38,021 nucleotides of DNA from Desulfobulbaceae bacterium (GTDB lineage Bacteria; Desulfobacterota; Desulfobulbia; Desulfobulbales; Desulfobulbaceae). The notes under the pieces were generated by a model that did no database searches, had not been told where the DNA came from, and saw nothing but the letters and a program-made list of their open reading frames with translations. The stretch covers positions 1-38,021 of the forward strand of contig JALSNC010000152.1 of the NCBI GenBank assembly GCA_026987195.1. Reading direction: 5' to 3'. Below, in pieces: positions 4,273 to 38,021 of this stretch; within the stretch, counting starts at the first letter, position 1; the number at the start of each line of letters is the position of its first letter. A program made the position numbers and the translations under genes.

Positions 4273-4310
4273 TCAGCCCCGGTTCCGTAAGCGGTCCCTG
4301 GGAGCCCCTG

Positions 4311-4360
4311 CACCATTGTGCTCGGAAAAACCGATCCTCGGTCATCCCGTGAGGGGTTGC
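4311..4360 (+). repeat. Interspersed repeat family B, partial copy
   Basis: About 50 bp that match the right end of the family B copy at 8003-8052. Both contain a CGGGAAAACCGAT or CGGAAAAACCGAT block followed by GTCATCCCGTGAGGGGTTGC. This copy lacks the left portion of the element and is followed 10 bp later by a family A copy. Confidence 0.7.
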
Positions 4361-7826: not shown

Positions 7827-8052
7827 GTAAGCGCTTGCAGGAGCCGCACGGAGTCTACGCTGTGCTCCGCTTACCTCTTTGCACGGTCGTGCCTGCCCGC
7901 ACAGGCAGGCTGTCGGAGTCTCCCTGCGGTCGCTTACCTGCGGTCAGACACGCCTGCACAGGTAAGCGTAGACTCCGAATCTGCGGCCCCTGAGAGCGCT
8001 TACACTGTTGTGCCCGGGAAAACCGATGGTTAGTCATCCCGTGAGGGGTTGC
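7827..8052 (+). repeat. Interspersed repeat family B, longest copy
   Basis: A composite element of about 225 bp that fills the gap between nadE and the cytochrome gene. It contains several short inverted repeats, among them GCCTGCC/GGCAGGC (7891-7910) and repeated CGCTTAC or GTAAGCG blocks next to AGACTCCG or GGAGTCT. The core matches 344-478 in inverted orientation. The right end (8003-8052) matches 4311-4360. A weaker match to the middle lies at 12524-12563. No open frame in it looks like a protein. Confidence 0.7.
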
Positions 8053-25151: not shown

Positions 25152-25973
25152 ATGGAGAGTGACAACGAACAGGTCCTGTTCACCAGGCGCACGGGAAGAC
25201 TGGTGTACCTGGTGCTGAACCGGCCCGGGGTACACAATGCCCTGAGCCGGGAGCTGCTGCTGGCGTTACGAAGGGAACTGGAGCTGATCCGGGACGATCC
25301 CGGCGTGGATGCGGTCTTCTTCACCGGCGCCGGTGAACGGGCCTTTTCCGCCGGCGCCGATATTGGTTTTCTGCACAGGGCAACGCCCCTCGACGTCAGG
25401 GAACTGGCCCTGCTTGCAATCTCCGTGACCCGGCTCATCGAGGAGCTGGGCAGGCTCACCATCGCCCTGATCAACGGCTTTGCCCTGGGGGGCGGCCTGG
25501 AGCTGGCCGAGGCATGCATGCTGCGGATCGCCAGTCGCGAAGCACGGATGGGGCATCCCGAGGTCCGCATCGGCGCCGTTGCCGGCTGGGGCGGAACAAC
25601 ACGCCTGCCGCGCCTCATCGGCCGGGGACGGGCCACGGAGATGCTGCTCACCGGCGAGATCATCGATGCCGACGAGGCACTGCGCCTGGGGCTGGTGAAC
25701 CGGGTGGTTGAAGGCAGTGAACTGCGGCAGGAGGGGGAACGGTTGGCCGGGCAGATCCTGGACAACAGCCCGGTGGCGGTCCGGCTTACCTGGGAGGCCA
25801 TCCTTGGCGGACAGGATGCAGGCCTGGCCGGGTCTCTGCGCCTGGGCGCGGACTGCTTCGGTCTGGCCGCAGCCAGCAGTGATTTCCGCACCGGTACCGC
25901 CGCCTTTCTGAACAGGGAAAAGGCCAGGTTTCATGCGGCCCGGGAAGACCGGATCGTGCCGTCATCATCATGA
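25152..25973 (+). CDS. Enoyl-CoA hydratase/isomerase family protein
   Basis: Encodes a 273-residue crotonase-fold enzyme that probably adds water to a 2-enoyl-CoA. The oxyanion-hole stretch FSAGADIGFLHR and the segment INGFALGGGLELAEACMLRI hold the first catalytic glutamate, Glu117. Glu137 follows in MGHPEVRIGAVAGWGGTTRL. The 20-residue distance and contexts match the two catalytic glutamates of classical enoyl-CoA hydratase, so a hydratase is more likely than an isomerase or decarboxylase, although substrate chain length cannot be read. AGGAGGAGA lies just before the ATG. It stands alone between the nuo terminator and a convergent gene; a role in fatty-acid or aromatic degradation, or supply of the downstream synthases, is speculation. 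Confidence 0.93.
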   Translation: MESDNEQVLFTRRTGRLVYLVLNRPGVHNALSRELLLALRRELELIRDDPGVDAVFFTGAGERAFSAGADIGFLHRATPLDVRELALLAISVTRLIEELGRLTIALINGFALGGGLELAEACMLRIASREARMGHPEVRIGAVAGWGGTTRLPRLIGRGRATEMLLTGEIIDADEALRLGLVNRVVEGSELRQEGERLAGQILDNSPVAVRLTWEAILGGQDAGLAGSLRLGADCFGLAAASSDFRTGTAAFLNREKARFHAAREDRIVPSSS

Positions 25974-25991: not shown

Positions 25992-26033
25992 GGTGACGGA
26001 TCTCTATCGGCCGTCACCACGCCTCTTTTTTTT
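25992..26033 (+). terminator. Possible terminator after the enoyl-CoA hydratase gene
   Basis: An 8-bp perfect inverted repeat, GGTGACGG (25992-25999) with CCGTCACC (26011-26018), has an 11-nt loop and is followed after 7 bp by eight T residues (26026-26033). It overlaps the last codons of the convergent PEP-CTERM gene. The gap between stem and T-run makes it less than canonical. Confidence 0.45.
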
Positions 26034-26657
26034 CAGCACTCCGGCAATGCCGGCCAGGCCGGTGGCGAACAGGACCATGGTCCCGGGTTCCGGTACCGGG
26101 GCGGTTCCCCGCACCGAGACATTATCGATGCCGACGACAGAGCTTGTCCACCAACCCTGTTCCCAGAGCTGGAAGGCGAGAATCGCATCCGGCGAGGTGT
26201 AGGCGGAGACATCGAGGATGGTCTGAAAAGAGCCGTGATTGGTCCAGTTGACACCGTCTGACTGCAGGTCCATGATGCTGAGCCGCATCACCGGTGTGCC
26301 ATCCTGCCGGACAAAGGAGAGAAAGGTGTCCTCCCGGTGCGCCGAAAGATCGGTATAGGGAAAGGTCCAGTCAAAGGAGACCTCCAGCTGGTCGATGCCC
26401 TGGATGGAGAAGGTCTGCCAGAGGGCCGACAGACCAGCACCGGTGTCTGCCCCGAGAAGGGCGAAGTTTCCTTCCATGCCCAGGATGCTGGTCGCATACC
26501 AGCCGGCAGGAACCACCTGCACGTCCCCATATCTGTTCCATCCGGCCAGTCCCTGGTCGAAACCGCCGTTTTCTATCAGTTCCACCGGGGTCGCAGAGGC
26601 GGCCCCGCTCCAGCCTGCCAGGATCGTACAGAGAACAGCCACTATCAGTCGTTGCAT
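26004..26657 (-). CDS. Secreted PEP-CTERM sorting-domain protein
   Basis: Encodes a 217-residue exported protein of unknown function. It starts with a signal peptide, MQRLIVAVLCTILAGWSGAASA. The mature part opens with NGGFDQGLAGW, a pattern common in carbohydrate-binding-like beta-sandwich domains of such proteins. The C-terminus is a textbook PEP-CTERM tail: VPEPGTMVLFATGLAGIAGV followed by a basic LKKKRRGDGR end. Such tails are recognised by exosortase, linking the protein to the cell surface or exopolysaccharide; no exosortase gene is in this window. The start at 26657 is chosen because AGGAGG lies 5 bp upstream and the signal peptide begins there; an ATG at 26732 would add 25 hydrophilic residues. 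It converges on the enoyl-CoA hydratase gene. Confidence 0.9.
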   Translation of the reverse strand: MQRLIVAVLCTILAGWSGAASATPVELIENGGFDQGLAGWNRYGDVQVVPAGWYATSILGMEGNFALLGADTGAGLSALWQTFSIQGIDQLEVSFDWTFPYTDLSAHREDTFLSFVRQDGTPVMRLSIMDLQSDGVNWTNHGSFQTILDVSAYTSPDAILAFQLWEQGWWTSSVVGIDNVSVRGTAPVPEPGTMVLFATGLAGIAGVLKKKRRGDGR

Positions 26658-27424
26658 TGTTGCCTCCTGTTGTTGGTGCCCTCCTCGGTTGCAATAAGCG
26701 GGCCCATGGTGTCGCTCTGTGCGTTTTTTCATATATGTAGTGTATTCATCCTGTTATGACGGTAAGCCACGATCGGCGCAGGGAGCGGTCGCGGCCTGGC
26801 AGCGCCTGCCTGTTCGTTTTTTCGGAATATTTCGCAATGCCGGAAAAAGCAGGCCGCAGGATTGAGAGCAATTCTTTCTGTTATCTTGGCCGATTATCCG
26901 TTATTGACACATTGTGGCATCATATGTCTTTCGAAATTTCGGAATTATGATATGATGGAGTTCCTTTTCGGGTCGTATCCTTCCTGGCTCCGGTACCCTG
27001 TTGTCCGTGGTGGACAGCAGATCCGGTGGAGAGGTGAAGGCTTGGAAAGAATCTGTGCCCCCAGGGAAAGGAATTTGGTGGCAACAGAAAGGCAATGGTG
27101 GTAACGTATGGAAAATTATACTTATCAGTGATCCTTGCCAATGTGGAATGATCTCAGGGCGCCTGGATCGTCATTGTGATGTATCTGGTTGTTTTTTGGA
27201 TTTGTCGTCCACTGAACAGTCCAGGTGTCCGGCCTGTCGGGTCAGGGACCAGCCGGTGACACTGGTGGCCGGGCATGATGGCATAATCGCCGCCTGCGGC
27301 ATTGATCATGCAGCGCGTGGTGGCAACCGCGCCCGGGCAGGGTGTCTGTCCTTTCCGAATCCGAATCTTCCGCCGTTGACAAAACCGGGTCGCGCCTGCA
27401 AAGGCGATCCTCAACCGGAGTTGT
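26658..27424. other. 767-bp non-coding region between the PEP-CTERM gene and the megasynthase operon
   Basis: No gene is supported here; open frames are short and lack family patterns. The stretch 26860-26960 is AT-rich against its surroundings and holds a TTGACA (26904-26909), without a well-spaced -10, and a TATGAT (26946-26951). A hairpin, CTGTTGTCC/GGACAGCAG with a 5-nt loop and one G-T pair, lies at 26998-27020. Another TTGACA at 27376 is also without a good -10. Promoters for both divergent genes should lie here, but none can be fixed. Confidence 0.5.
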
Positions 27425-30400
27425 ATGAAACGGACACAGGTTCTGGTCTCGCAACTTCCTGGATTTCCTGATCCGCTGCCGGTGGCCGCGGCCTGCCGGG
27501 CCGGTGCGACCGGCATCCTCGATGGCCTCTGGCTCTCCGATCAGGCCGTGATCCGCTGCCGGGAGCGCCTTCAGGCACTTGCCGGCACGCCGGCCGGGCT
27601 CCGGCTGGCCGCCAGCCGGGCCGGCCTGATTGATACCCTCCTTGACCAGGGAGACCAGGCCATCGACACCCTGGTCCTGACCGGTCCCTTTCCCCCGGAT
27701 ACCGCGGATACGGTCACCCGCATTGCCCCCCGTGTCGGCCAGGTTCTCGTCGAATGTCTGGACGAGGAGGATCTTCGCCTGGCCCAACGGTCAGGCGCCG
27801 GCGGTGTCATTGTCCGGGGCAACGAGGCCGGCGGCCTGGTGGCCGCCGAGTCGTCGTTCATCCTCCTGCAACGGTTTCTTGCCGCCACATCCCTGCCCGT
27901 CTATGTCCAGGGCGGCATAGGGCCGCATAGCGCTGCCGCCTGCATGGCGGCCGGTGCGGCCGGCGTGGTTCTGGACGGTCAGTGTGCTCTGGCCCGGGAA
28001 TCATCCCTGCCGGATCATCTGAAAAAGCATTTCTCCTCCTTCGACGGCACCCAGACCGGGTGTCCGGAGCTGGGCCATGGTCACGGGTTGAGGGTCCTCT
28101 CGCGCATCAACCGCGCTGCTGCCGGGGAGTTCCTGCGCCGGGTCGAGGCCCGGGCTGCCGAATCTCCGGGATGGCCGCAGCTCAGGGACGTTCTCTCTTC
28201 CCTGCTGGCCACGGCGGCCTCTCCTGAAGCAGGCGCCGGCCGTGTTTTTCCTCTGGGCCAGGACATCGCTCTTGCCGCGCCGCTGGCCGAGAGGTTCGTC
28301 ACCGTGGCCGGCATTGTTTCAGGAATCTGTGATCAGGTCAACCGGCTGCCAGCCGACCTCGATGCCTCCGCCATTCTCGGCGAGAACACCCCCCTTGCCC
28401 GTTCGCACCGTACCCGGTATCCCATCGTCCAGGGGCCCATGGCCAGGATCAGCGATTCGCCCGCCTTCGCCCTGGCAGTGGCCGAGGCCGGCGGTCTCCC
28501 CTTTCTTGCCGCCGCCATGCTGGGTGGAAATGAGCTGGAACGGATCGTGACCGCCACTGCGAATACCCTCGGCAGCCGTCCCTGGGGAGTGGGCCTGCTC
28601 GGGTTTCTGCCCTCTGACCGCTACCGGGAACAGGTCCGGATCCTGCTTGCCCACCGGCCGCCCTTTGCCCTCATCGCCGGCGGCCGGCCTGAACAGGCCC
28701 GGGCCCTGGAGGCGGAGGGCATCGCAACCTATCTCCATGTCCCCACCCCCGGGCTGCTGCGCATGTTTCTCAAGGCCGGGGCCAGGCGCTTTGTCTTCGA
28801 AGGCCGCGAGGCCGGCGGTCATGTGGCGCCGCTTGCTTCCTTTGTCCTCTGGGAGCAGATGCTCCTGCTGCTCGGGGATTTTCTCGCCCGGAGAAAGGGA
28901 GAGGCCGAGGAACTGCACCTGCTCTTTGCCGGTGGTATCCATGATGGTCTGTCCGCGGCCATGGTCGCGGCCCTGGCGGCTCCCCTGGCCGGACAGGGGG
29001 TACGGATCGGCCTTCAGCTCGGCAGCGTCTATCTCTTTACCGAGGAGATCGTCGCCACCGGCGCTCTGGAGAAACAGTACCGCGACATGGTGCTGGCCGG
29101 AGAGCGGACAGTACTGCTGGAGACCGGCCTCGGCCATGCCAGCCGCTGCGTGCCCACACCCTTTGCCGACGAATTTCTGCGCCGGCGGCAGGAGCTCCGT
29201 TCCCGGGGTCTTGGCGAGCGCGAGATCCGTGACCGGCTCGAGCTGCTGAACCTGGGCAAGTTGCGCCTGGCCGCCAAGGGCGTGGACCGTCCGGCAGCGG
29301 ACAGCAGGGCAGAGCCGGTCCGGGTGAGTGAGAAGGAACAGCGTCGTCAGGGGCTCTACATGGTCGGCCAGCTCGGCACCCTGCGGCGGCAGGTGGTATC
29401 CGTGGCCGATGTCCACCGCAGTGTCATCGACGACGGTCGCAGCCGGCTGGAGGAGTACCGTGCCCGCCATGGCGGCAGGCCTCCGGCCCCACGGTCCCGG
29501 CCTGCGGACATCGCCATCATCGGCATGGCCTCCATTCTGCCGGGTGCCCCGTCCGTCCGCCGTTACTGGCACAACATCCTCTCCCGGGTCAACGCGGTCA
29601 CCGAGGTGCCGCCCGAGCGATGGGACTGGCGTCTCTATTATGACGAGGACCAGGATGCCGAGGATCGCTGTTATTCCCGCTGGGGCGCCTTTATCGACGA
29701 GACAGTGTTCGACCCGGTCTCCTGGGGCATGCCGCCGGCCTCGATCCCCTTCATCGAGCCCCTGCAACTCCTTGCCCTGGAGATGGCCCGGCAGGCGCTG
29801 GTCGATGCCGGCTATGACCGACGGCCCTTTTCCAGGGAGCGCACCTCGGTGATCCTGGGTATCAGCGGTGCCGGCGAGCTGGGCCAGCTCTACAGCTTCC
29901 GGGCCGCCCTGCCCATGTTCCTCGGAGAGGCCGCCCGCAGGGTCACCGACCATTTTCATGACCGGCTGCCCCGCTGGAGCGAGGATACCTTTCCCGGTAT
30001 TCTCACCAATGTCACCGCCGGCCGCATCGCCAACCGTCTTGATCTCGGCGGCACCAACTATACCGTCGACGCCGCCTGTGCCTCCTCCCTGGCCGCCCTC
30101 TATCTGGCAGTGATGGAGCTCGAAGCCGGGCGAAGCCGCATGGCGCTGGTGGGGGCCGCCGACTGCCTGCAGAATCCCTTTGCCTATCTCTGTTTTTCCA
30201 AAACCCGTGCCCTGTCACCCCGCGGCCAGTGCCGTACCTTTGACCGGGATGCCGACGGTATCGCCCTGGGCGAGGGAGTGGCCATGCTGGTCCTCAAACG
30301 GCTGGCCGACGCCGAGGCCGACGGGGACAGGATCCACGCCGTGATCAGGAGCGTGGGGGCATCCAGTGACGGCCGGGACCGGAGCCTGACCGCGCCGCGA

Positions 30401-33400
30401 CGGGAGGGGCAGCTCGTCGCCTTTGAGCGCGCCTACGGTCGGGCCGGGTTCTCCCCGGCCACGGTGGGGCTCGTCGAGGCCCATGGTACCGGCACCGTGC
30501 TCGGTGACCAGGTGGAACTGGAGGCCCTGACCGCACTTCTCCGCTCTGCAGGTGCACCACCGCGCAGTGTTGCCGTGGGCTCGGTCAAGTCCATGATCGG
30601 CCATACCAAGTCCACCGCCGGTATCGCCGGCCTGATCAAGGCCACCCTGGCCCTGCGCGACCGGATCCTGCCGCCGACCATGGGCGTGGAACAGCCCAAC
30701 CGGGTCCTGGAGGATGACGACAGTCCCCTGTTTCTCAACACCACGGCCCGGCCCTGGCTCAATGGCCACCGGGACCTGCCCCGTCGGGCCGGGGTCAGTG
30801 CCCTGGGATTCGGCGGCACCAACTTCCATGTCGTTCTGGAGGAGTACCGGAACAGCCTGGTGCCGCAGCGGCAGCGGCCCCTGCTCGGGTTTGCGGCCGA
30901 GCTCTATCTCTTCCGCGCTGCCTCGGCCGACGAGCTGCGGACAACCCTGGCCGCCTGGCGGCAGTGGCTTGCCCGCCACCCGGATGTCGATCCCGCCTGC
31001 CTGGCCCTGGGTGCCTGGCAGGCAGCGCAGACAACCGACGACGCACGCCGGTGCCTGGCCGTGGTCGCTGCCTCGACCCGGGAACTGGCCCAGCTCCTTG
31101 CCGAGGCAGGCGAGCATCTTGCCACGGACGCGGAGATCCGGGATCCGCGCGGTATCTATCATGCCCCCCGTCCCCTGGCAGCAGGCGGCGCTGTCGCGTT
31201 TCTCTTCCCCGGCCAGGGGTCGCAGTACGTCAACATGCTGGCCGACCTGGCCATTCAGTTTCCCGAGGTCCATGATCTTTTCGAGCGCGCGGTCTTTCTC
31301 CTCAGGGACCGTCTGGAGGAGCCGCTCTCCGCAGTCCTCTATCCCTGGTCCGCATTCCGCCCGGACGAGGAGAAGCGTCAGGCAAAGGCCCTGGCCCGGA
31401 CCCGCTACGCGCAGCCGGCCATGGGAGCGGCCGATCTGGCCATCTTCGACCTGCTCGGGGCGTGCAATGTCCGTCCCGACATGGCCGGCGGCCACAGCTA
31501 CGGCGAGTACGCGGCCCTGTGCGCCGCCGGTGTCATGGGCCGTGACGATCTGATCCGTCTCTCCGAGGCCCGGGGTCGTTTCATCGTCGAGTCGGCCGAG
31601 CCCGAGCCCGGCACCATGGCCGCGGTCAAGGCTGACCGGGAACAGGTGGCCCGGATTCTCGCCAACCGGCCCCATGTCTGGATCGCCAACCTCAATGCCC
31701 CGGACCAGACCATCATCTCCGGTCATGGCCGGGCCGTGGAAGAAGCGGTCCGGGATTTCGGCTCCGCCGGTATCGCCGCCCGCACCATACCCGTGGCCTG
31801 CGCCTTTCACTCGCCGGTGGTGGCCGGCGCCGTGGACAGGCTGCACGAGTTCCTGGCCGACGTCGAGCTGGGCGAGCCCCGTTTTCCGGTCTATTCCAAC
31901 CGCACGGCTGCATCATACCCGGCGGATCGCAGCGCTGTCATCGACCTGCTGGGTGAGCACCTGGTGCACGGGGTCGAGTTCATCCGCCAGATCGAGGCCA
32001 TGTACGACGCCGGCGCCCGCCTCTTCGTGGAGTCGGGTCCGGGCCGGGTACTGAGCAACCTGGTGGCCAGCATCCTCGGCGACCGTCCCCATCTGGCCGT
32101 ACCCGCCAACCTGCCGGGCCGATCCGGCATGGTCGGCCTGCTCCATTGCCTGGGCCACCTTGCCGCGCACGGAGTGCCTGTGGACCTGGTTCCGCTTTTT
32201 CAGGGCCGGGACCTGGAGCCGGTCTCGCCCGGGATACCAGAGAGGGATACCGGTTATCCGGCTGCGGCCTGGCTGGTCAGCGGCGGCCGGGCCCGGCCCT
32301 GCAGCGGGGCGGACCAGCCGCCGGCCCCGGTCCGTCCCATGGAGCCGGGCCGGCTCTGGCCGGCCGATGGCGAGTCAGGGGCCGCCACCAGGTCGGCAGG
32401 GCTGCCGGCTGCCGGCCCGGTGAACATGCCGCCGGCCGGCGCTGGAGACCGCGACCGGGTCTTTGCCGGCTACCAGCGGCTGATGCAGACCTTCCTGGAG
32501 ACCCAGGCCGGAGTCATGAAGGCCTGGCTCGGTGACTCCCGGTCGACGGAGCAGGAGAGCAGCGGCCGGGAGCCGGTTCCTGTTCCCCTGCCCCGGGAGG
32601 CGGAGAAATGCCACGTCCCGGAAGCGGTGGCAGGGGCGCCACCACCGGGCGATGTCCGGACCGTCCTGCTGGCCATTGTCAGCGACCGGACCGGCTACCC
32701 GGTCGAGATGCTGTCCCTGGATGCGGACCTGGAAGGGGAACTGGGTATTGATTCCATCAAGCGGGTGGAGATCCTGGGCGTACTGGTCGGCGAACTCTTT
32801 GCCGGAGACCGGGAGGCGGCGGCAGAGGCATCCTCGGAACTGGCCACCTGCCGGAGCCTTGGTGCAATCATCGACCGGGCAGGGGAGATCCTTGCCCGGA
32901 AAGGGGCACCGGACGATGGCAGAATCGTGCCGGGAAAGGAGACAGCGTCTGCCGGAGAGGCGGCAGATCCGAAGGAGCTGCTCCTGGGAATCGTTGCCGA
33001 CCGGACCGGTTACCCGGTCGGTATGCTGTCCCCGGATGCGGATCTGGAAGGAGAACTGGGCATCGACTCCATCAAGCGGGTGGAGATCCTGGGCGCCTTT
33101 GCCGATGCCCTCCGTGCAGCCGGTCCGCTCGACGGTGAGGCACTGGAACGGATGGGCCAGGCCCGGACCCTGGCCGCGATCCTGGCCTGCCTCGACCCGG
33201 TGCCGGACAGGCAGGAAGGGGAAGACAGCGGAGAGCCGCTGCCGAGGTTCCTGCTCACCAGCCGTTCCTGTCCCCTGCAGGAGCCGCTTCTGCAGAAAGT
33301 GCCGACCCGGGGATGGATCCTGGTCACGGACGATGGCCAGGGACGGGCCACGGAACTGGCCGGACTGATCGCCGGTCAGGGCGGCAGGGTGGAGATCCTC

Positions 33401-34795
33401 GCGACTGCGGATATGAAGGAGGCCGAACTGCGGCAGCGGATACAGGCCCTGCGGCAGGTTCATGGTCCGGCGAACGGTCTGGTGCATCTTGCCCCCCTGG
33501 CAGCGGGGCCATCCTATGACGACCTGGACCTGGCGGGCTGGCGGGCGCGGATCCGGCAGGAAAGTGAAGTCCTCTTTCATCTGCTGCAGGAACTGGCCGT
33601 GGATCTGGCAGGGGCGGATGACGGGGTGATCCTAGCGGCAACGGCCATGGGTGGCTGTTTCGGCATTGAGGGGGGAGCGGATTTCATGCCCTGCCAGGGC
33701 GGGGTTTGCGGCCTGCTCAAGACCGTGGCCGCGGAGTGGCCCGGCGTCCGGGTCCGCTGTGTCGATCTTGATCCGGGCCTCGGGCCGCAGGCGATGCTCG
33801 ATGCGGTGTGGGCTGAACTGCGATGCGCCGGAGACGAGGTCGAGGTGGGGTGGACGGATCGTGGCCGCTGCCGGCCGGTGCTCGAAGCACGGCCCCTGCC
33901 CGCGGAAGCCGACCTTGCCCTGGATACCCCGTCCGTGATCCTGGTGACCGGCGGTGCCCGCGGTATCACCGCTGCCGCGGCCCTGGAACTGGCCCGCCGC
34001 CATCGGCCCACCCTGATCCTGGTGGGCAGTTCGCCCCTGCCTCCGGAACGGGAGGATGAGACTACCGTCGGCCTGGACGAGGCCGGGATCAAGGCGGCGC
34101 TCGTCGCCCGGATGAAGGATGACGATGGCCGGGTCCGCCTTCCCGAGGTGGAGCGGGCCTGCCGTGCCGTTCTCAAGGAACGGGAGATCCGAGCCAATAT
34201 CGCAGCCATGCGGGCCGCCGGTGCCCGGGTCATCTACCGCCAGGCCGATGTCCGCAGGCAGGAAGAGTTTGTCACTCTCCTCGATGAGCTGTACGACGAG
34301 TTCGGTGGTATCCACGGGGTAATTCATGGCGCCGGGATTATCGAGGACAAACTGCTGGTCGACAAGCCCGCCGAATCCTTCCGCAGGGTGGTGTCCACCA
34401 AGGCGGACAGCGTGTTCCTTCTCGCCCGTGCCCTGCGGCCGGATTCCCTGCGGTTCCTGGTCCTGTTCTCGTCGGTGGCCGGCCGGTTCGGCAATCCCGG
34501 CCAGTGCGACTATACGGCCGCCAACGAGATCGTCAACAAGACAGCCCGGCTCCTTGACCGGCGCTGGCCCTGCCGGGTGGTGGCGATCAACTGGGGTCCC
34601 TGGGCAAAGGAGGGGATGGTCAGCCCGGCCCTGGAACGGCAGTTCGCCGAGCGGGGTGTACGCCTCATCGAGCCCGCTGACGGCGTGGCCATGCTCATGG
34701 CCGAGATCTTCCGCGGCCGCAAGGGCGAGGTGGAGGTGACCGTCGGTGACGGCCCCTGGGGCGCCATCGCCGGAGACGGGGAGGAGAATACATGA
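27425..34795 (+). CDS. Multidomain Pfa-like synthase: two nitronate-monooxygenase-like barrels-KS-AT-ACP-ACP-KR
   Basis: Encodes a 2456-residue megasynthase. Residues 1-220 form a degenerate FMN-barrel half (VYVQGGIGPHSAAACMAAGA). Residues about 330-620 form a PfaD/2-nitropropane-dioxygenase-like barrel: YPIVQGPMARISDS, then GREAGGHVAP with His466. Next is a ketosynthase from residue 695 with an intact triad: Cys885 (DAACASS), His1020 (EAHGTGT) and His1060. An acyltransferase (about 1257-1560) has Ser1358 (GHSYGE) and His1462. A helix, YQRLMQTFLETQAGVMKAWL, precedes two carrier domains with GIDSIKR (Ser1777, Ser1882). A ketoreductase ends it: TGGARGITA (from 2175) and Tyr2363 in CDYTAANE. KS-AT-ACPs-KR is the order of PfaA; PfaD is normally separate and here appears fused in front. 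GGAG lies 4 bp before the ATG. The product is unknown, and a polyunsaturated or otherwise specialised fatty acid is the leading guess. Confidence 0.93.
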   Translation: MKRTQVLVSQLPGFPDPLPVAAACRAGATGILDGLWLSDQAVIRCRERLQALAGTPAGLRLAASRAGLIDTLLDQGDQAIDTLVLTGPFPPDTADTVTRIAPRVGQVLVECLDEEDLRLAQRSGAGGVIVRGNEAGGLVAAESSFILLQRFLAATSLPVYVQGGIGPHSAAACMAAGAAGVVLDGQCALARESSLPDHLKKHFSSFDGTQTGCPELGHGHGLRVLSRINRAAAGEFLRRVEARAAESPGWPQLRDVLSSLLATAASPEAGAGRVFPLGQDIALAAPLAERFVTVAGIVSGICDQVNRLPADLDASAILGENTPLARSHRTRYPIVQGPMARISDSPAFALAVAEAGGLPFLAAAMLGGNELERIVTATANTLGSRPWGVGLLGFLPSDRYREQVRILLAHRPPFALIAGGRPEQARALEAEGIATYLHVPTPGLLRMFLKAGARRFVFEGREAGGHVAPLASFVLWEQMLLLLGDFLARRKGEAEELHLLFAGGIHDGLSAAMVAALAAPLAGQGVRIGLQLGSVYLFTEEIVATGALEKQYRDMVLAGERTVLLETGLGHASRCVPTPFADEFLRRRQELRSRGLGEREIRDRLELLNLGKLRLAAKGVDRPAADSRAEPVRVSEKEQRRQGLYMVGQLGTLRRQVVSVADVHRSVIDDGRSRLEEYRARHGGRPPAPRSRPADIAIIGMASILPGAPSVRRYWHNILSRVNAVTEVPPERWDWRLYYDEDQDAEDRCYSRWGAFIDETVFDPVSWGMPPASIPFIEPLQLLALEMARQALVDAGYDRRPFSRERTSVILGISGAGELGQLYSFRAALPMFLGEAARRVTDHFHDRLPRWSEDTFPGILTNVTAGRIANRLDLGGTNYTVDAACASSLAALYLAVMELEAGRSRMALVGAADCLQNPFAYLCFSKTRALSPRGQCRTFDRDADGIALGEGVAMLVLKRLADAEADGDRIHAVIRSVGASSDGRDRSLTAPRREGQLVAFERAYGRAGFSPATVGLVEAHGTGTVLGDQVELEALTALLRSAGAPPRSVAVGSVKSMIGHTKSTAGIAGLIKATLALRDRILPPTMGVEQPNRVLEDDDSPLFLNTTARPWLNGHRDLPRRAGVSALGFGGTNFHVVLEEYRNSLVPQRQRPLLGFAAELYLFRAASADELRTTLAAWRQWLARHPDVDPACLALGAWQAAQTTDDARRCLAVVAASTRELAQLLAEAGEHLATDAEIRDPRGIYHAPRPLAAGGAVAFLFPGQGSQYVNMLADLAIQFPEVHDLFERAVFLLRDRLEEPLSAVLYPWSAFRPDEEKRQAKALARTRYAQPAMGAADLAIFDLLGACNVRPDMAGGHSYGEYAALCAAGVMGRDDLIRLSEARGRFIVESAEPEPGTMAAVKADREQVARILANRPHVWIANLNAPDQTIISGHGRAVEEAVRDFGSAGIAARTIPVACAFHSPVVAGAVDRLHEFLADVELGEPRFPVYSNRTAASYPADRSAVIDLLGEHLVHGVEFIRQIEAMYDAGARLFVESGPGRVLSNLVASILGDRPHLAVPANLPGRSGMVGLLHCLGHLAAHGVPVDLVPLFQGRDLEPVSPGIPERDTGYPAAAWLVSGGRARPCSGADQPPAPVRPMEPGRLWPADGESGAATRSAGLPAAGPVNMPPAGAGDRDRVFAGYQRLMQTFLETQAGVMKAWLGDSRSTEQESSGREPVPVPLPREAEKCHVPEAVAGAPPPGDVRTVLLAIVSDRTGYPVEMLSLDADLEGELGIDSIKRVEILGVLVGELFAGDREAAAEASSELATCRSLGAIIDRAGEILARKGAPDDGRIVPGKETASAGEAADPKELLLGIVADRTGYPVGMLSPDADLEGELGIDSIKRVEILGAFADALRAAGPLDGEALERMGQARTLAAILACLDPVPDRQEGEDSGEPLPRFLLTSRSCPLQEPLLQKVPTRGWILVTDDGQGRATELAGLIAGQGGRVEILATADMKEAELRQRIQALRQVHGPANGLVHLAPLAAGPSYDDLDLAGWRARIRQESEVLFHLLQELAVDLAGADDGVILAATAMGGCFGIEGGADFMPCQGGVCGLLKTVAAEWPGVRVRCVDLDPGLGPQAMLDAVWAELRCAGDEVEVGWTDRGRCRPVLEARPLPAEADLALDTPSVILVTGGARGITAAAALELARRHRPTLILVGSSPLPPEREDETTVGLDEAGIKAALVARMKDDDGRVRLPEVERACRAVLKEREIRANIAAMRAAGARVIYRQADVRRQEEFVTLLDELYDEFGGIHGVIHGAGIIEDKLLVDKPAESFRRVVSTKADSVFLLARALRPDSLRFLVLFSSVAGRFGNPGQCDYTAANEIVNKTARLLDRRWPCRVVAINWGPWAKEGMVSPALERQFAERGVRLIEPADGVAMLMAEIFRGRKGEVEVTVGDGPWGAIAGDGEENT

Positions 34796-37700
34796 CCACC
34801 GCAGACACCGATACCCGCATCGCCATCGTCGGCATGGCCTGCATCGTGCCCGGCGCTGCGGATCCGCGCGTCTTCTGGCAGAATATCGTCGACGGCGTGG
34901 ACGCGGTGTCCGATCCTCCACCGGACTGGGGCGCAGATTTCTGGTACGATCCCGATTCGGAGGAGAACGACCGCATCTACTGCAAGCGGGGCGGATACCT
35001 GGGTGAACTGGCGACCTTTGATCCCCTGAAATACGGCATCATGCCCAATACCGTGGACGGGGCCGAGCCCGAACATTTCCTGGCCCTCAAGGTGGCCCAT
35101 GCCGCCCTGGCCGATGCCGGGGTGCCCGACCTGCCGCTCAACCGCGAGCGGACCGAGGTGATCCTGGGCCGCGGTACCTTTGTCAACCGGGGATATACCT
35201 CCCTGCATCAGCACGGCCTGTTCATCGATCAGACCCTGATGATCCTGCGCCAGCTCTTCCCCGAGTACAGTGCCGATGAACTTGCCCGGATCAGGCAGAG
35301 GCTCAGAGAGCAGCTGCCGCCTTTCAATGCCCAGATCGCGCCGGGCCTGGTCTCCACCATCATGACCGGCCGGGTGGCCAACCGGCTGGACCTGCAGGGT
35401 TGCAACTTTTCCGTGGACGCGGCCTGCGCCTCATCCCTGATCGCGGTGGAACGGGGCGTGCAGGATCTGGTGGCCGGAAACTGCGACGCGGTCATCGCCG
35501 GTGGCGTGCAGCTCTCCACCGACCAGCTGATCCTGATGGTCTTCTCCCAGCTCGGGGCCCTGTCCCGGAGCGGTCAGATCCGGCCCTTTGCCGCCGACGC
35601 CAACGGCACCCTGCTCGGCGAGGGGCTGGGCATGGTGGTGCTCAAGCGGCTGGCCGACGCCGAGCGCGACGGCAACCGTATCTATGCCGTTATCAGGGGC
35701 GTGGCCAGCGCCTCTGACGGCCGCGGCAGGAGCGTGGTCGCCCCCCGGGTCGAGGGCGAGGCCCTGGCCCTGGCGCGGGCTTATGAGCGGGCCGGGATCG
35801 ACCCGGCCACCATCGGCCTGGTCGAGGCCCATGGCACGGCCATGCCCCTGGGCGACGCCACCGAGATCCAGGGCCTTGCCCGTCTGTTCGGCAGCCGGAC
35901 CGACCCGGTACCTTCCTGTGCCATCGGTTCGGTCAAGTCGATGATCGCCCATCTGATCCCGGCAGCCGGCATCGCCGGTCTGATCAAGGCCGCCCTGGCC
36001 CTCTACCACCGGACCCTGCCGCCGACCCTGCACTGCGACAGACCCAATCCCGACCTTGGCCTGGAGAAGACCCCCTTCTATATCAATACCGAGACACGGC
36101 CCTGGATCCATGGCGGCCCTGTACCGCGCCGGGCCGGGGTCAACGCCTTCGGTTTCGGCGGCATCAATGCCCACGCCATTCTCGAGGAACATGCCGGTGT
36201 CCCGGAAGAGGAGTCCTTTGTCCGTCACTGGCCCAGCGAACTCTGCCTGCTTGCCGCCGGTTCCCGTGATGAACTGATCGACAGGGGCGAGCAGCTGCTT
36301 TCCTTCCTGCGTCGGGAGCGTCCTGCCCTGGTGGACGTGGCCGCCACCCTGGCCGCAAGCCTGCGCGGCAATCCAGTGCGCCTGGCCCTGGTCGCCTCGT
36401 CCTGTGACGAACTGGCCGCCAGGGTGACCCATGCCCTGGAGCGGTTGCGCGACCCGGCCAGAAAACGGATCCGCGAGAAAAAGGGGATCTACTTTTTCGA
36501 GGAGCAACTGGGACGCTCCGGCAGGATCGGGTTTCTCTATCCCGGGGAAGGCTCCCAGTATCCGGACATGCTGGCGGACCTCTGTATCCATTTCCCGGAG
36601 GTGCGCGCCTGTTTCGACAACCTGGATCGCGCCCTTGCCGACCTGAACATGGCTGTGCCGCCCAGCCGGGTCCTGTTCCCGCCACCGGGCCTGGGCGAAC
36701 AGGAGCGGCAGTATCTTGCCGACCTGCTCTGGGACATGGAGTATGCCGTGGACGCGGTGATCACCGCCGACCGTGCCCTGACACGACTGCTGGAAAGTTT
36801 CGGTATCCGCGCCCATGCCATGGCCGGGCACTCCAGCGGCGAGTTCATGGCTCTTGAGGCCGCAGGGGTCATCGCTGTCGGTTCGGAGGAGGAGCTCCGC
36901 CACCATATCCGCACCGGCCACGAGATGATCCGTGAGCTGGCCCGGGGCGAGACCATGGCAGGATCGCGCCTGGTGGCCATGGGACCGGTGGAGCGGCCAC
37001 TGGTGGACGAGCTGGTGGCCCGGGACGAAAGGATCTTTCTGGCCATGGACAACTGCCCTCACCAGGCAGTGCTCTGTATGCCGGAAGACACGGTGGAGAA
37101 GATCTCCGTTGGCCTCCGTTCCCGGGGGACCATCTGTCAGCCCCTTGCCTTCGGCCGTCCCTACCATACCCCACTCTACGCCTCTGCCTGCGGCCCCCTG
37201 GAACGGTTCTTCGATACCCTGCCCCTGTGCCCGGCCAGGATCCCGCTCTACTCCTGCATGTCCGCTGCGCCCATGCCCGATGATCTCGCCGGCCTGCGAC
37301 GGCTGGCCGTAGGCCAGTGGGCTGCCACGGTCCGGTTCCGCGAGACTGTCCTCGCCATGCATGAGGACGGGATCCGGATCTTTCTCGAGGTTGGACCCAA
37401 GGCCCATCTCACCGGTTTTGTCAGCGATACCCTCAAGGGAAAGGAATTTCTGAGCCTGCCGGTCAATGTCCATCACCGTTCCGGTCTGCTCCAGCTCCAG
37501 CACTGCCTGGGCATGCTGGCCGCTCATGGTGTTGACCTGGACCTGACCCCGCTTTTTCACCGCCGTTCACCCGAGATCCTCGATTTTCACGGCAGCCGGC
37601 CTCCCCGCGACACGGAGCCGCCCCTCTCCCTGCGACTGCCCCTGCTCAGCCTGGAAGGAGAGGATGCCGGCCTCCTGCGGCCCGCGGCTGCCACGGCCAC

Positions 37701-38021
37701 GTCACCACCCGGTGATGGCCAGGGTGTCGCCGACGGCCGGGCGCAGGGCATGGAGGAGTACCTGCGGACCATGGAGCGATTTCTCCATACCCAGCAGGAG
37801 GTGATGCAGGCCTGGCTCGCCGGCGGACCGGCGCAGACCTTTGCCCAGACGGCGGCAGAGGAAACCCGGCCCTCTGGCCCGCCCCAGGTCCCAGTCCCTG
37901 TTGCCCCGGCCGCTGAACCGGGGACGCCGGTGGAAGAGGCTGCCGGCCGGGAGACAGACATGCAGCGCCTGCTGCTGGATGTGGTCAGCGAAAAGACCGG
38001 GTATCCCGTGGAGATGATCGA
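34792..38021 (+). CDS. Second Pfa-like synthase: KS-AT-ACP..., incomplete at window end
   Basis: Runs open from an ATG at 34792 to the window edge (1,076 complete codons). The ATG overlaps the stop of the first synthase as ATGA, so the two are translated together. The ketosynthase (from about residue 8) keeps Cys212 (DAACASS), His347 and His387, but the usual HGTGT reads EAHGTAMPLGD, and the NxGH site reads SMIAHLIPAAG. The acyltransferase starts near residue 583 with FLYPGEGSQYPDMLADL, has Ser681 (GHSSGE) and His792 (GRPYHTP). A helix, MEEYLRTMERFLHTQQEVMQ (987-1006), matches the one before the carriers of the first synthase. After a Pro/Ala-rich linker, a carrier domain begins (LLLDVVSEKTGYPVEMI) and is cut off. 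Further carrier or tailoring domains are to be expected beyond the window. Confidence 0.93.
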   Translation, partial: MTTADTDTRIAIVGMACIVPGAADPRVFWQNIVDGVDAVSDPPPDWGADFWYDPDSEENDRIYCKRGGYLGELATFDPLKYGIMPNTVDGAEPEHFLALKVAHAALADAGVPDLPLNRERTEVILGRGTFVNRGYTSLHQHGLFIDQTLMILRQLFPEYSADELARIRQRLREQLPPFNAQIAPGLVSTIMTGRVANRLDLQGCNFSVDAACASSLIAVERGVQDLVAGNCDAVIAGGVQLSTDQLILMVFSQLGALSRSGQIRPFAADANGTLLGEGLGMVVLKRLADAERDGNRIYAVIRGVASASDGRGRSVVAPRVEGEALALARAYERAGIDPATIGLVEAHGTAMPLGDATEIQGLARLFGSRTDPVPSCAIGSVKSMIAHLIPAAGIAGLIKAALALYHRTLPPTLHCDRPNPDLGLEKTPFYINTETRPWIHGGPVPRRAGVNAFGFGGINAHAILEEHAGVPEEESFVRHWPSELCLLAAGSRDELIDRGEQLLSFLRRERPALVDVAATLAASLRGNPVRLALVASSCDELAARVTHALERLRDPARKRIREKKGIYFFEEQLGRSGRIGFLYPGEGSQYPDMLADLCIHFPEVRACFDNLDRALADLNMAVPPSRVLFPPPGLGEQERQYLADLLWDMEYAVDAVITADRALTRLLESFGIRAHAMAGHSSGEFMALEAAGVIAVGSEEELRHHIRTGHEMIRELARGETMAGSRLVAMGPVERPLVDELVARDERIFLAMDNCPHQAVLCMPEDTVEKISVGLRSRGTICQPLAFGRPYHTPLYASACGPLERFFDTLPLCPARIPLYSCMSAAPMPDDLAGLRRLAVGQWAATVRFRETVLAMHEDGIRIFLEVGPKAHLTGFVSDTLKGKEFLSLPVNVHHRSGLLQLQHCLGMLAAHGVDLDLTPLFHRRSPEILDFHGSRPPRDTEPPLSLRLPLLSLEGEDAGLLRPAAATATSPPGDGQGVADGRAQGMEEYLRTMERFLHTQQEVMQAWLAGGPAQTFAQTAAEETRPSGPPQVPVPVAPAAEPGTPVEEAAGRETDMQRLLLDVVSEKTGYPVEMI

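Follow-up and report, generated by a model that had tools for sequence, protein, structure and literature searches.

Organization of the synthase locus

The window analysed here, a stretch of 38,021 nucleotides from a Desulfobulbaceae bacterium, is the entire contig C152 of a 3.8 Mb assembly in 316 contigs that is ~95% complete. We observed two synthase genes on its + strand. The first (27425-34795) encodes a protein of 2456 aa, while the second begins at 34792, overlapping the first by ATGA, and runs to the contig end at 38021. An earlier note on this DNA had described a fused protein coupled through ATGA to a second KS-AT-ACP protein, and the open reading frames and Pfam matches bore this out. 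The domain matches in the synthase proteins had E-values down to 1e-64, and are strong family matches rather than chance. Upstream of the cluster lie a Nuo operon, an enoyl-CoA hydratase just before it (25152-25973) and a PEP-CTERM-type secreted protein beside it on the - strand (26004-26732), all named from their translations. The last two occupy the same place in the same-genus genome G001.

Protein 1 has the domain order NMO1-NMO2-KS-AT-ACP-ACP-KR, as judged from the open reading frame, Pfam and the PfaA model (TIGR02813). The first FMN-barrel domain (residues 1-322; 27425-28390) is FabK-like, gave the weaker match, and has Leu138 at the position of the catalytic His. The second (residues 323-666; 28391-29422) was recognized from Pfam NMO matches in two stretches, from its fold, and from an intact EAGGH motif with His466. 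These are followed by ketosynthase 1 (KS1, 29495-30859; Pfam, KS tree), whose Cys/His/His motifs start at residues 882, 1018 and 1055, and by acyltransferase 1 (AT1, 31199-32041; Pfam), which carries GHSYGE and, within SEARGRF, an Arg that is typical of malonyl transferases. The two acyl-carrier domains (32648-33169, outer limits approximate; Pfam PP-binding) have LGIDSIK at residues 1773 and 1878, and a ketoreductase domain (33935-34606; Pfam) completes the protein. All of these domains are on the + strand, and the catalytic motifs of the KS, AT and KR are intact. Protein 1 scored above the curated PfaA cut-off (1111.7 versus 1010.1 bits). Together with the KS tree described below, this upheld the proposal in the earlier note that the locus encodes a Pfa-like secondary-lipid synthase. 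From these features protein 1 can be classed as the ArsA-like, or fused pfaDA, type.

The part of protein 2 that lies in the window (34792-38021, + strand) consists of a KS, an AT and the start of an ACP. Ketosynthase 2 (KS2, 34813-36216, + strand; Pfam, KS tree) has the active-site Cys and both His motifs, so that it looks active and is not a chain-length factor. Acyltransferase 2 (AT2, 36532-37440, + strand; Pfam) has GHSSGE, and GEGSQ replaces GQGSQ. AT1 carries the Arg for binding the malonyl carboxylate. This residue is missing from AT2 and from its homologues, which likewise have GEGSQ, and AT2 therefore probably handles long acyl chains, either in loading or in off-loading. This would resemble PfaB, the terminal long-chain acyltransferase, from which the same Arg is absent (PMC12895367); the two differ, however, at the His of GHSxG, retained in AT2 but replaced in PfaB.

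The cluster continues on a second contig

The earlier note had placed the remainder of the cluster beyond the window end, and we found it on contig C135 (locus L004) of the same genome. The final 389 nt of C152 (37633-38021) and the first 389 nt of C135 (L004 1-389) were 93% identical, and the terminal 126 nt of the overlap matched exactly. The junction thus sits in a strain-variable stretch, a pattern that would be expected at the meeting point of two strain variants in an assembly. Joining the two contigs kept the reading frame and gave a protein 2 of 1718 aa, ending at position 2316 of L004, which was colinear with an unbroken homologue of 1721 aa in the same-genus genome G002. The exact overlap and this colinearity support the join. 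A different contig, C287, matched over only 33 nt and was set aside as a continuation. In the relative G002 we also noted an assembly break inside synthase protein 1, near the carrier linker (C76/C164).

The part of protein 2 on C135 contains the rest of the third ACP, a double-hotdog dehydratase (PS-DH, E 2.8e-12) and a phosphopantetheinyl transferase (PPTase; ACPS, 1.3e-7), so that the joined protein is KS-AT-ACP-DH-PPTase. Extending the sequence past 38021, as the earlier note had advised, therefore recovered both the DH and the PPTase. Its remark that there was no dehydratase so far is correct within the window, but the apparent absence is an end-of-contig effect. Protein 2 remained below the TIGR02813 cut-off of 1010.1 bits, with 601.2 bits for the window part and 68.5 bits for the C135 part.

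The reductase module is FabK-like

The earlier note had described a PfaD-like module in front of a PfaA-like protein. We observed that an enoyl-reductase-type module does stand in front, but that it is not of the PfaD family: the N-terminal barrel module scored 16.2 bits with the PfaD model (TIGR02814), below the cut-off of 449.25, while the same module scored 75 bits with the FabK model. Its predicted structure had a pLDDT of 92.5 and a pTM of 0.94. In the structure search, FabK was the closest to the second barrel (Z 37), followed by PfaD (Z 32); the matches covered mainly residues 208-686 and so say little on barrel 1. These comparisons indicate a FabK/NMO-like module rather than a member of the PfaD family. 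The likeness to FabK and nitronate monooxygenase lies in the fold, whereas here the barrels are in tandem, the first is without the catalytic His, and both are fused to a KS.

The EAGGH motif that contains the catalytic His is motif III (PMC13311796). This His was kept in the second barrel of 87/87 homologues, while in the first barrel it was present in only 2/87 and absent from the other 85. Enoyl reduction is therefore probably the task of barrel 2, with barrel 1 as its degenerate partner. By analogy with the subunits of FabK, or with the thraustochytrid ERb/ERc heterodimer, barrel 1 is probably structural and pairs with barrel 2. We also noted that the first FMN barrel has been kept across phyla in spite of its lost catalytic His.

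Ketosynthase phylogeny

In the KS tree, KS1 grouped with the Beijerinckia type P (ars) sequence and other barrel-fused ketosynthases in one clade (support 98/98). This Beijerinckia homologue served as the ars reference, in place of the Azotobacter ArsA itself. The KS1 clade adjoins the PfaA/Hgl clade, although the support for joining them was only moderate (91/89); its gammaproteobacterial PfaA and Hgl references are unnamed or genome-derived sequences picked out with the PfaA model, rather than characterized enzymes. KS2 was placed in a separate clade of second-protein ketosynthases (support 100/99). Both KS were apart from those of modular PKS, and the KS1 clade was also separate from FabF. 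A position of the KS in an ordinary modular PKS clade, which the earlier note had named as evidence against a Pfa-like synthase, was thus looked for and not found. As for the enediyne PKS, these were weighed from their single-protein layout only, the tree having no enediyne reference.

The fused synthase is widespread and previously described

A match to the two-barrel module (E<=1e-30) turned up in 15 of the 297 genomes that were sampled in the phylum (about 5%). Identity varied, and most of the matches lay within open frames of >2000 codons. There were at least 507 candidate stretches in the genome collection, and the best 80 of these include Desulfobulbaceae, Gammaproteobacteria, Planctomycetota, Chloroflexota and Acidobacteriota, as well as Cyanobacteria (Fischerella), Micromonospora, Chryseobacterium and Flavobacterium. 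A second KS-AT-DH protein was present beside most of the fused synthases whose flank was long enough, and the two-protein architecture is conserved across phyla.

Fused pfaDA plus pfaBC-PPTase synthases are on record in Renibacterium, Aquimarina and Flavobacterium (PMC13291983), and comparable layouts occur among the Types M-T and P that Shulse and Allen (2011) defined (PMC3098273). The synthase studied here shares with the fused pfaDA systems and Types M-T an ER fused ahead of KS-AT-ACPn-KR, and a second protein with KS-AT, DH and a C-terminal PPTase. The PPTase motifs QGRP and ISLAH fit x(G/D)xP and hShxH (P1a and P1b'), while the P0 pattern is absent; the same combination is seen in Types M-T. 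The neighbouring genes differ, however, being here an ACP, an AlkP-type protein, a hydrolase, SDRs, CoA-transferases and methyltransferases, and we found no NRPS/PKS assembly line beside the synthase, unlike in the fused pfaDA plus pfaBC-PPTase systems. The view in the earlier note that the fusion is unusual did not hold: it is real, but common in the genome searches and already described (PMC13291983; compare PMC3098273). What looked like an odd arrangement on a single contig is a genuine and well conserved locus of a known, widespread and largely uncharacterized synthase type.

A conserved set of accessory genes follows the synthase

On C135 the synthase is followed on the same strand by genes for a free ACP, a protein of the type I phosphodiesterase/AlkP superfamily, an alpha/beta hydrolase, a pair of SDRs and a pair of class III CoA-transferases. 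Further genes encode a protein with a methyltransferase at its C-terminus, an esterase resembling PHB depolymerases, three methyltransferases, a B12-binding radical SAM protein, a TPR-PilZ protein, one more conserved protein and an efflux protein of the outer membrane. This set was also found near the synthase in G002, G044, G053 and G682, partly reordered, and G006, G629 and Desulfobacula have a reduced version of it; it is conserved across several families.

An orthologue of the AlkP protein (>=48% identity) occurred in exactly the 7 of 116 related genomes that have a strong synthase match. These seven span six genera and four families. The chance of two identical genome sets is ~2e-11 if the genomes are independent, although kinship makes that independence incomplete. 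A search of the literature found no link between AlkP and PKS.

Two features of the accessory genes may be recorded separately. The protein with the C-terminal methyltransferase (L004 9354-11780) has 808 aa, the first ~500 of which have no Pfam match but are kept in clusters of Desulfobacterota and Gammaproteobacteria (Haliea). The SDR-SDR-CaiB-CaiB order at L004 5144-9308 resembles bbsCDEF (BbsCD/BbsEF) of anaerobic toluene/benzylsuccinate degradation. The best PDB match of CoA-transferase 2 was the benzylsuccinate CoA-transferase B chain. That of CoA-transferase 1 was not the partner chain, and the SDR gave no BbsCD match, and we therefore make no claim of a benzylsuccinate pathway for these genes.

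Proposed pathway and alternative interpretations

We consider, with a probability of roughly 0.78, that the locus is the core of an iterative type I FAS/PKS-like secondary-lipid cluster of the ArsA, or fused pfaDA, kind, whose product would be a long acyl chain, largely reduced and subsequently tailored. The basis for this is the domain content, the joined second gene, the clade, the motifs and the co-occurrence. From these we infer the order of steps, the chain length and the degree of reduction, the roles of KS2, AT2 and barrel 1, the tailoring and the export. The C-terminal PPTase of protein 2 would prime the carriers, AT1 would load malonyl units, and KS1 would condense them. The KR of protein 1, the DH of protein 2 and barrel 2 would reduce each keto group to give a long, mostly reduced acyl chain. 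KS2 may act in a late elongation and AT2 in PfaB-like long-chain loading or release. The free ACP would then probably take over the chain, for tailoring by the AlkP-type phosphodiesterase, the alpha/beta hydrolase, the SDRs, the CoA-transferases, the methyltransferases and the B12-radical SAM enzyme, and the product is perhaps exported.

The alternative that survives best is that some beta-hydroxy groups are left unreduced, and that the product is an O-methylated polyketide-like chain and not a simple fatty chain. There is only one DH for the two KS, and three related SAM methyltransferases, the methyltransferase fusion and the two SDRs are conserved in the cluster. The methyltransferases and SDRs would be easier to reconcile with a decorated chain that stays partly unreduced than with a plain saturated chain. 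The KR, DH and ER set is complete with intact motifs, however, and the characterized member of this lineage makes long fatty chains (PMC3098273, PMC4824345), so that we regard this alternative as rather unlikely.

A phenolic-lipid pathway (alkylresorcinol/alkylpyrone) like that of arsABCD was considered in view of the type P clusters. The cluster of Beijerinckia indica ATCC 9039 was placed in Type P with the Azotobacter vinelandii arsABCD by Shulse and Allen (PMC3098273), and ArsA makes long fatty acids that feed a type III PKS (PMC4824345). On the Beijerinckia plasmid we observed one protein with two barrels-KS-AT-ACP-KR, another with DH-PPTase, and two proteins with a KAS III C-terminal-like domain at the positions of arsB/arsC (type III PKS). 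This cluster is matched by protein 1, with the same domain order and KS1 clade as the Beijerinckia homologue, and by the DH-PPTase half of protein 2; protein 2 has an extra KS-AT-ACP in front. In the host genome, at the ~95% completeness given above, no type III PKS was detected: PF02797 gave no match and PF00195 none over its cut-off, and none of the six relatives carrying the synthase had a PF00195 match over the cut-off. Phenolic lipids are therefore very unlikely products.

A true PUFA synthase of the EPA/DHA/ARA type we consider equally improbable. Protein 1 does pass the PfaA model, and the locus shares with PfaABCDE (Types A/B) the KS-MAT-ACPn-KR order and a PfaB-like AT without the malonyl Arg. 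Types A/B, however, have 4-6 tandem ACPs, a KS-CLF-DH2 protein with a pair of DH in PfaC, and a separate ER, whereas we found two tandem ACPs, no CLF in either synthase protein (the Cys of KS2 is in place), one DH, and a fused FabK-like ER that is not of the PfaD family; KS1 also lies outside the PfaA/Hgl clade. The suggestion in the earlier note of a product other than EPA or DHA is thus probable, given the two ACPs, the lack of a CLF and the single DH. An ordinary modular PKS misread as a lipid synthase would account for the generic KS/AT/KR domains and for the closest PDB structures to the KS being PKS, but is scarcely credible given the separation of both KS in the tree, the PfaA-type LGIDSIK carriers and the two-protein architecture kept across phyla.

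Returning to a tailored secondary lipid, a more tentative reading concerns the cluster as a whole. The synthase, together with the conserved ACP, AlkP, hydrolase, SDR, CoA-transferase, methyltransferase, radical SAM and export genes, might form a Desulfobacterota pathway of ~30-40 kb, present as partial copies in Gammaproteobacteria, for methylated and possibly exported very-long-chain lipids of an undescribed class. The conserved tailoring set and its product are the more interesting part of the locus. This syntenic set, with an AlkP-type enzyme that shares the distribution of the synthase among related genomes, offers a testable lead, and the identity of the product would tell the role of these lipids in the relatives of sulfate reducers.

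A dispersed intergenic repeat

An Rfam search of the window gave no match. The window has a dispersed intergenic repeat of ~155 bp (350-496, 4291-4358 and 7876-8050), which was also seen at L004 5907-6061 and at L027 1361-1440. It has a strong internal inverted-repeat structure (fold z -7.3), and about 40 near-complete copies were found at 83-96% identity (40 scored of 337 genome-wide candidates).
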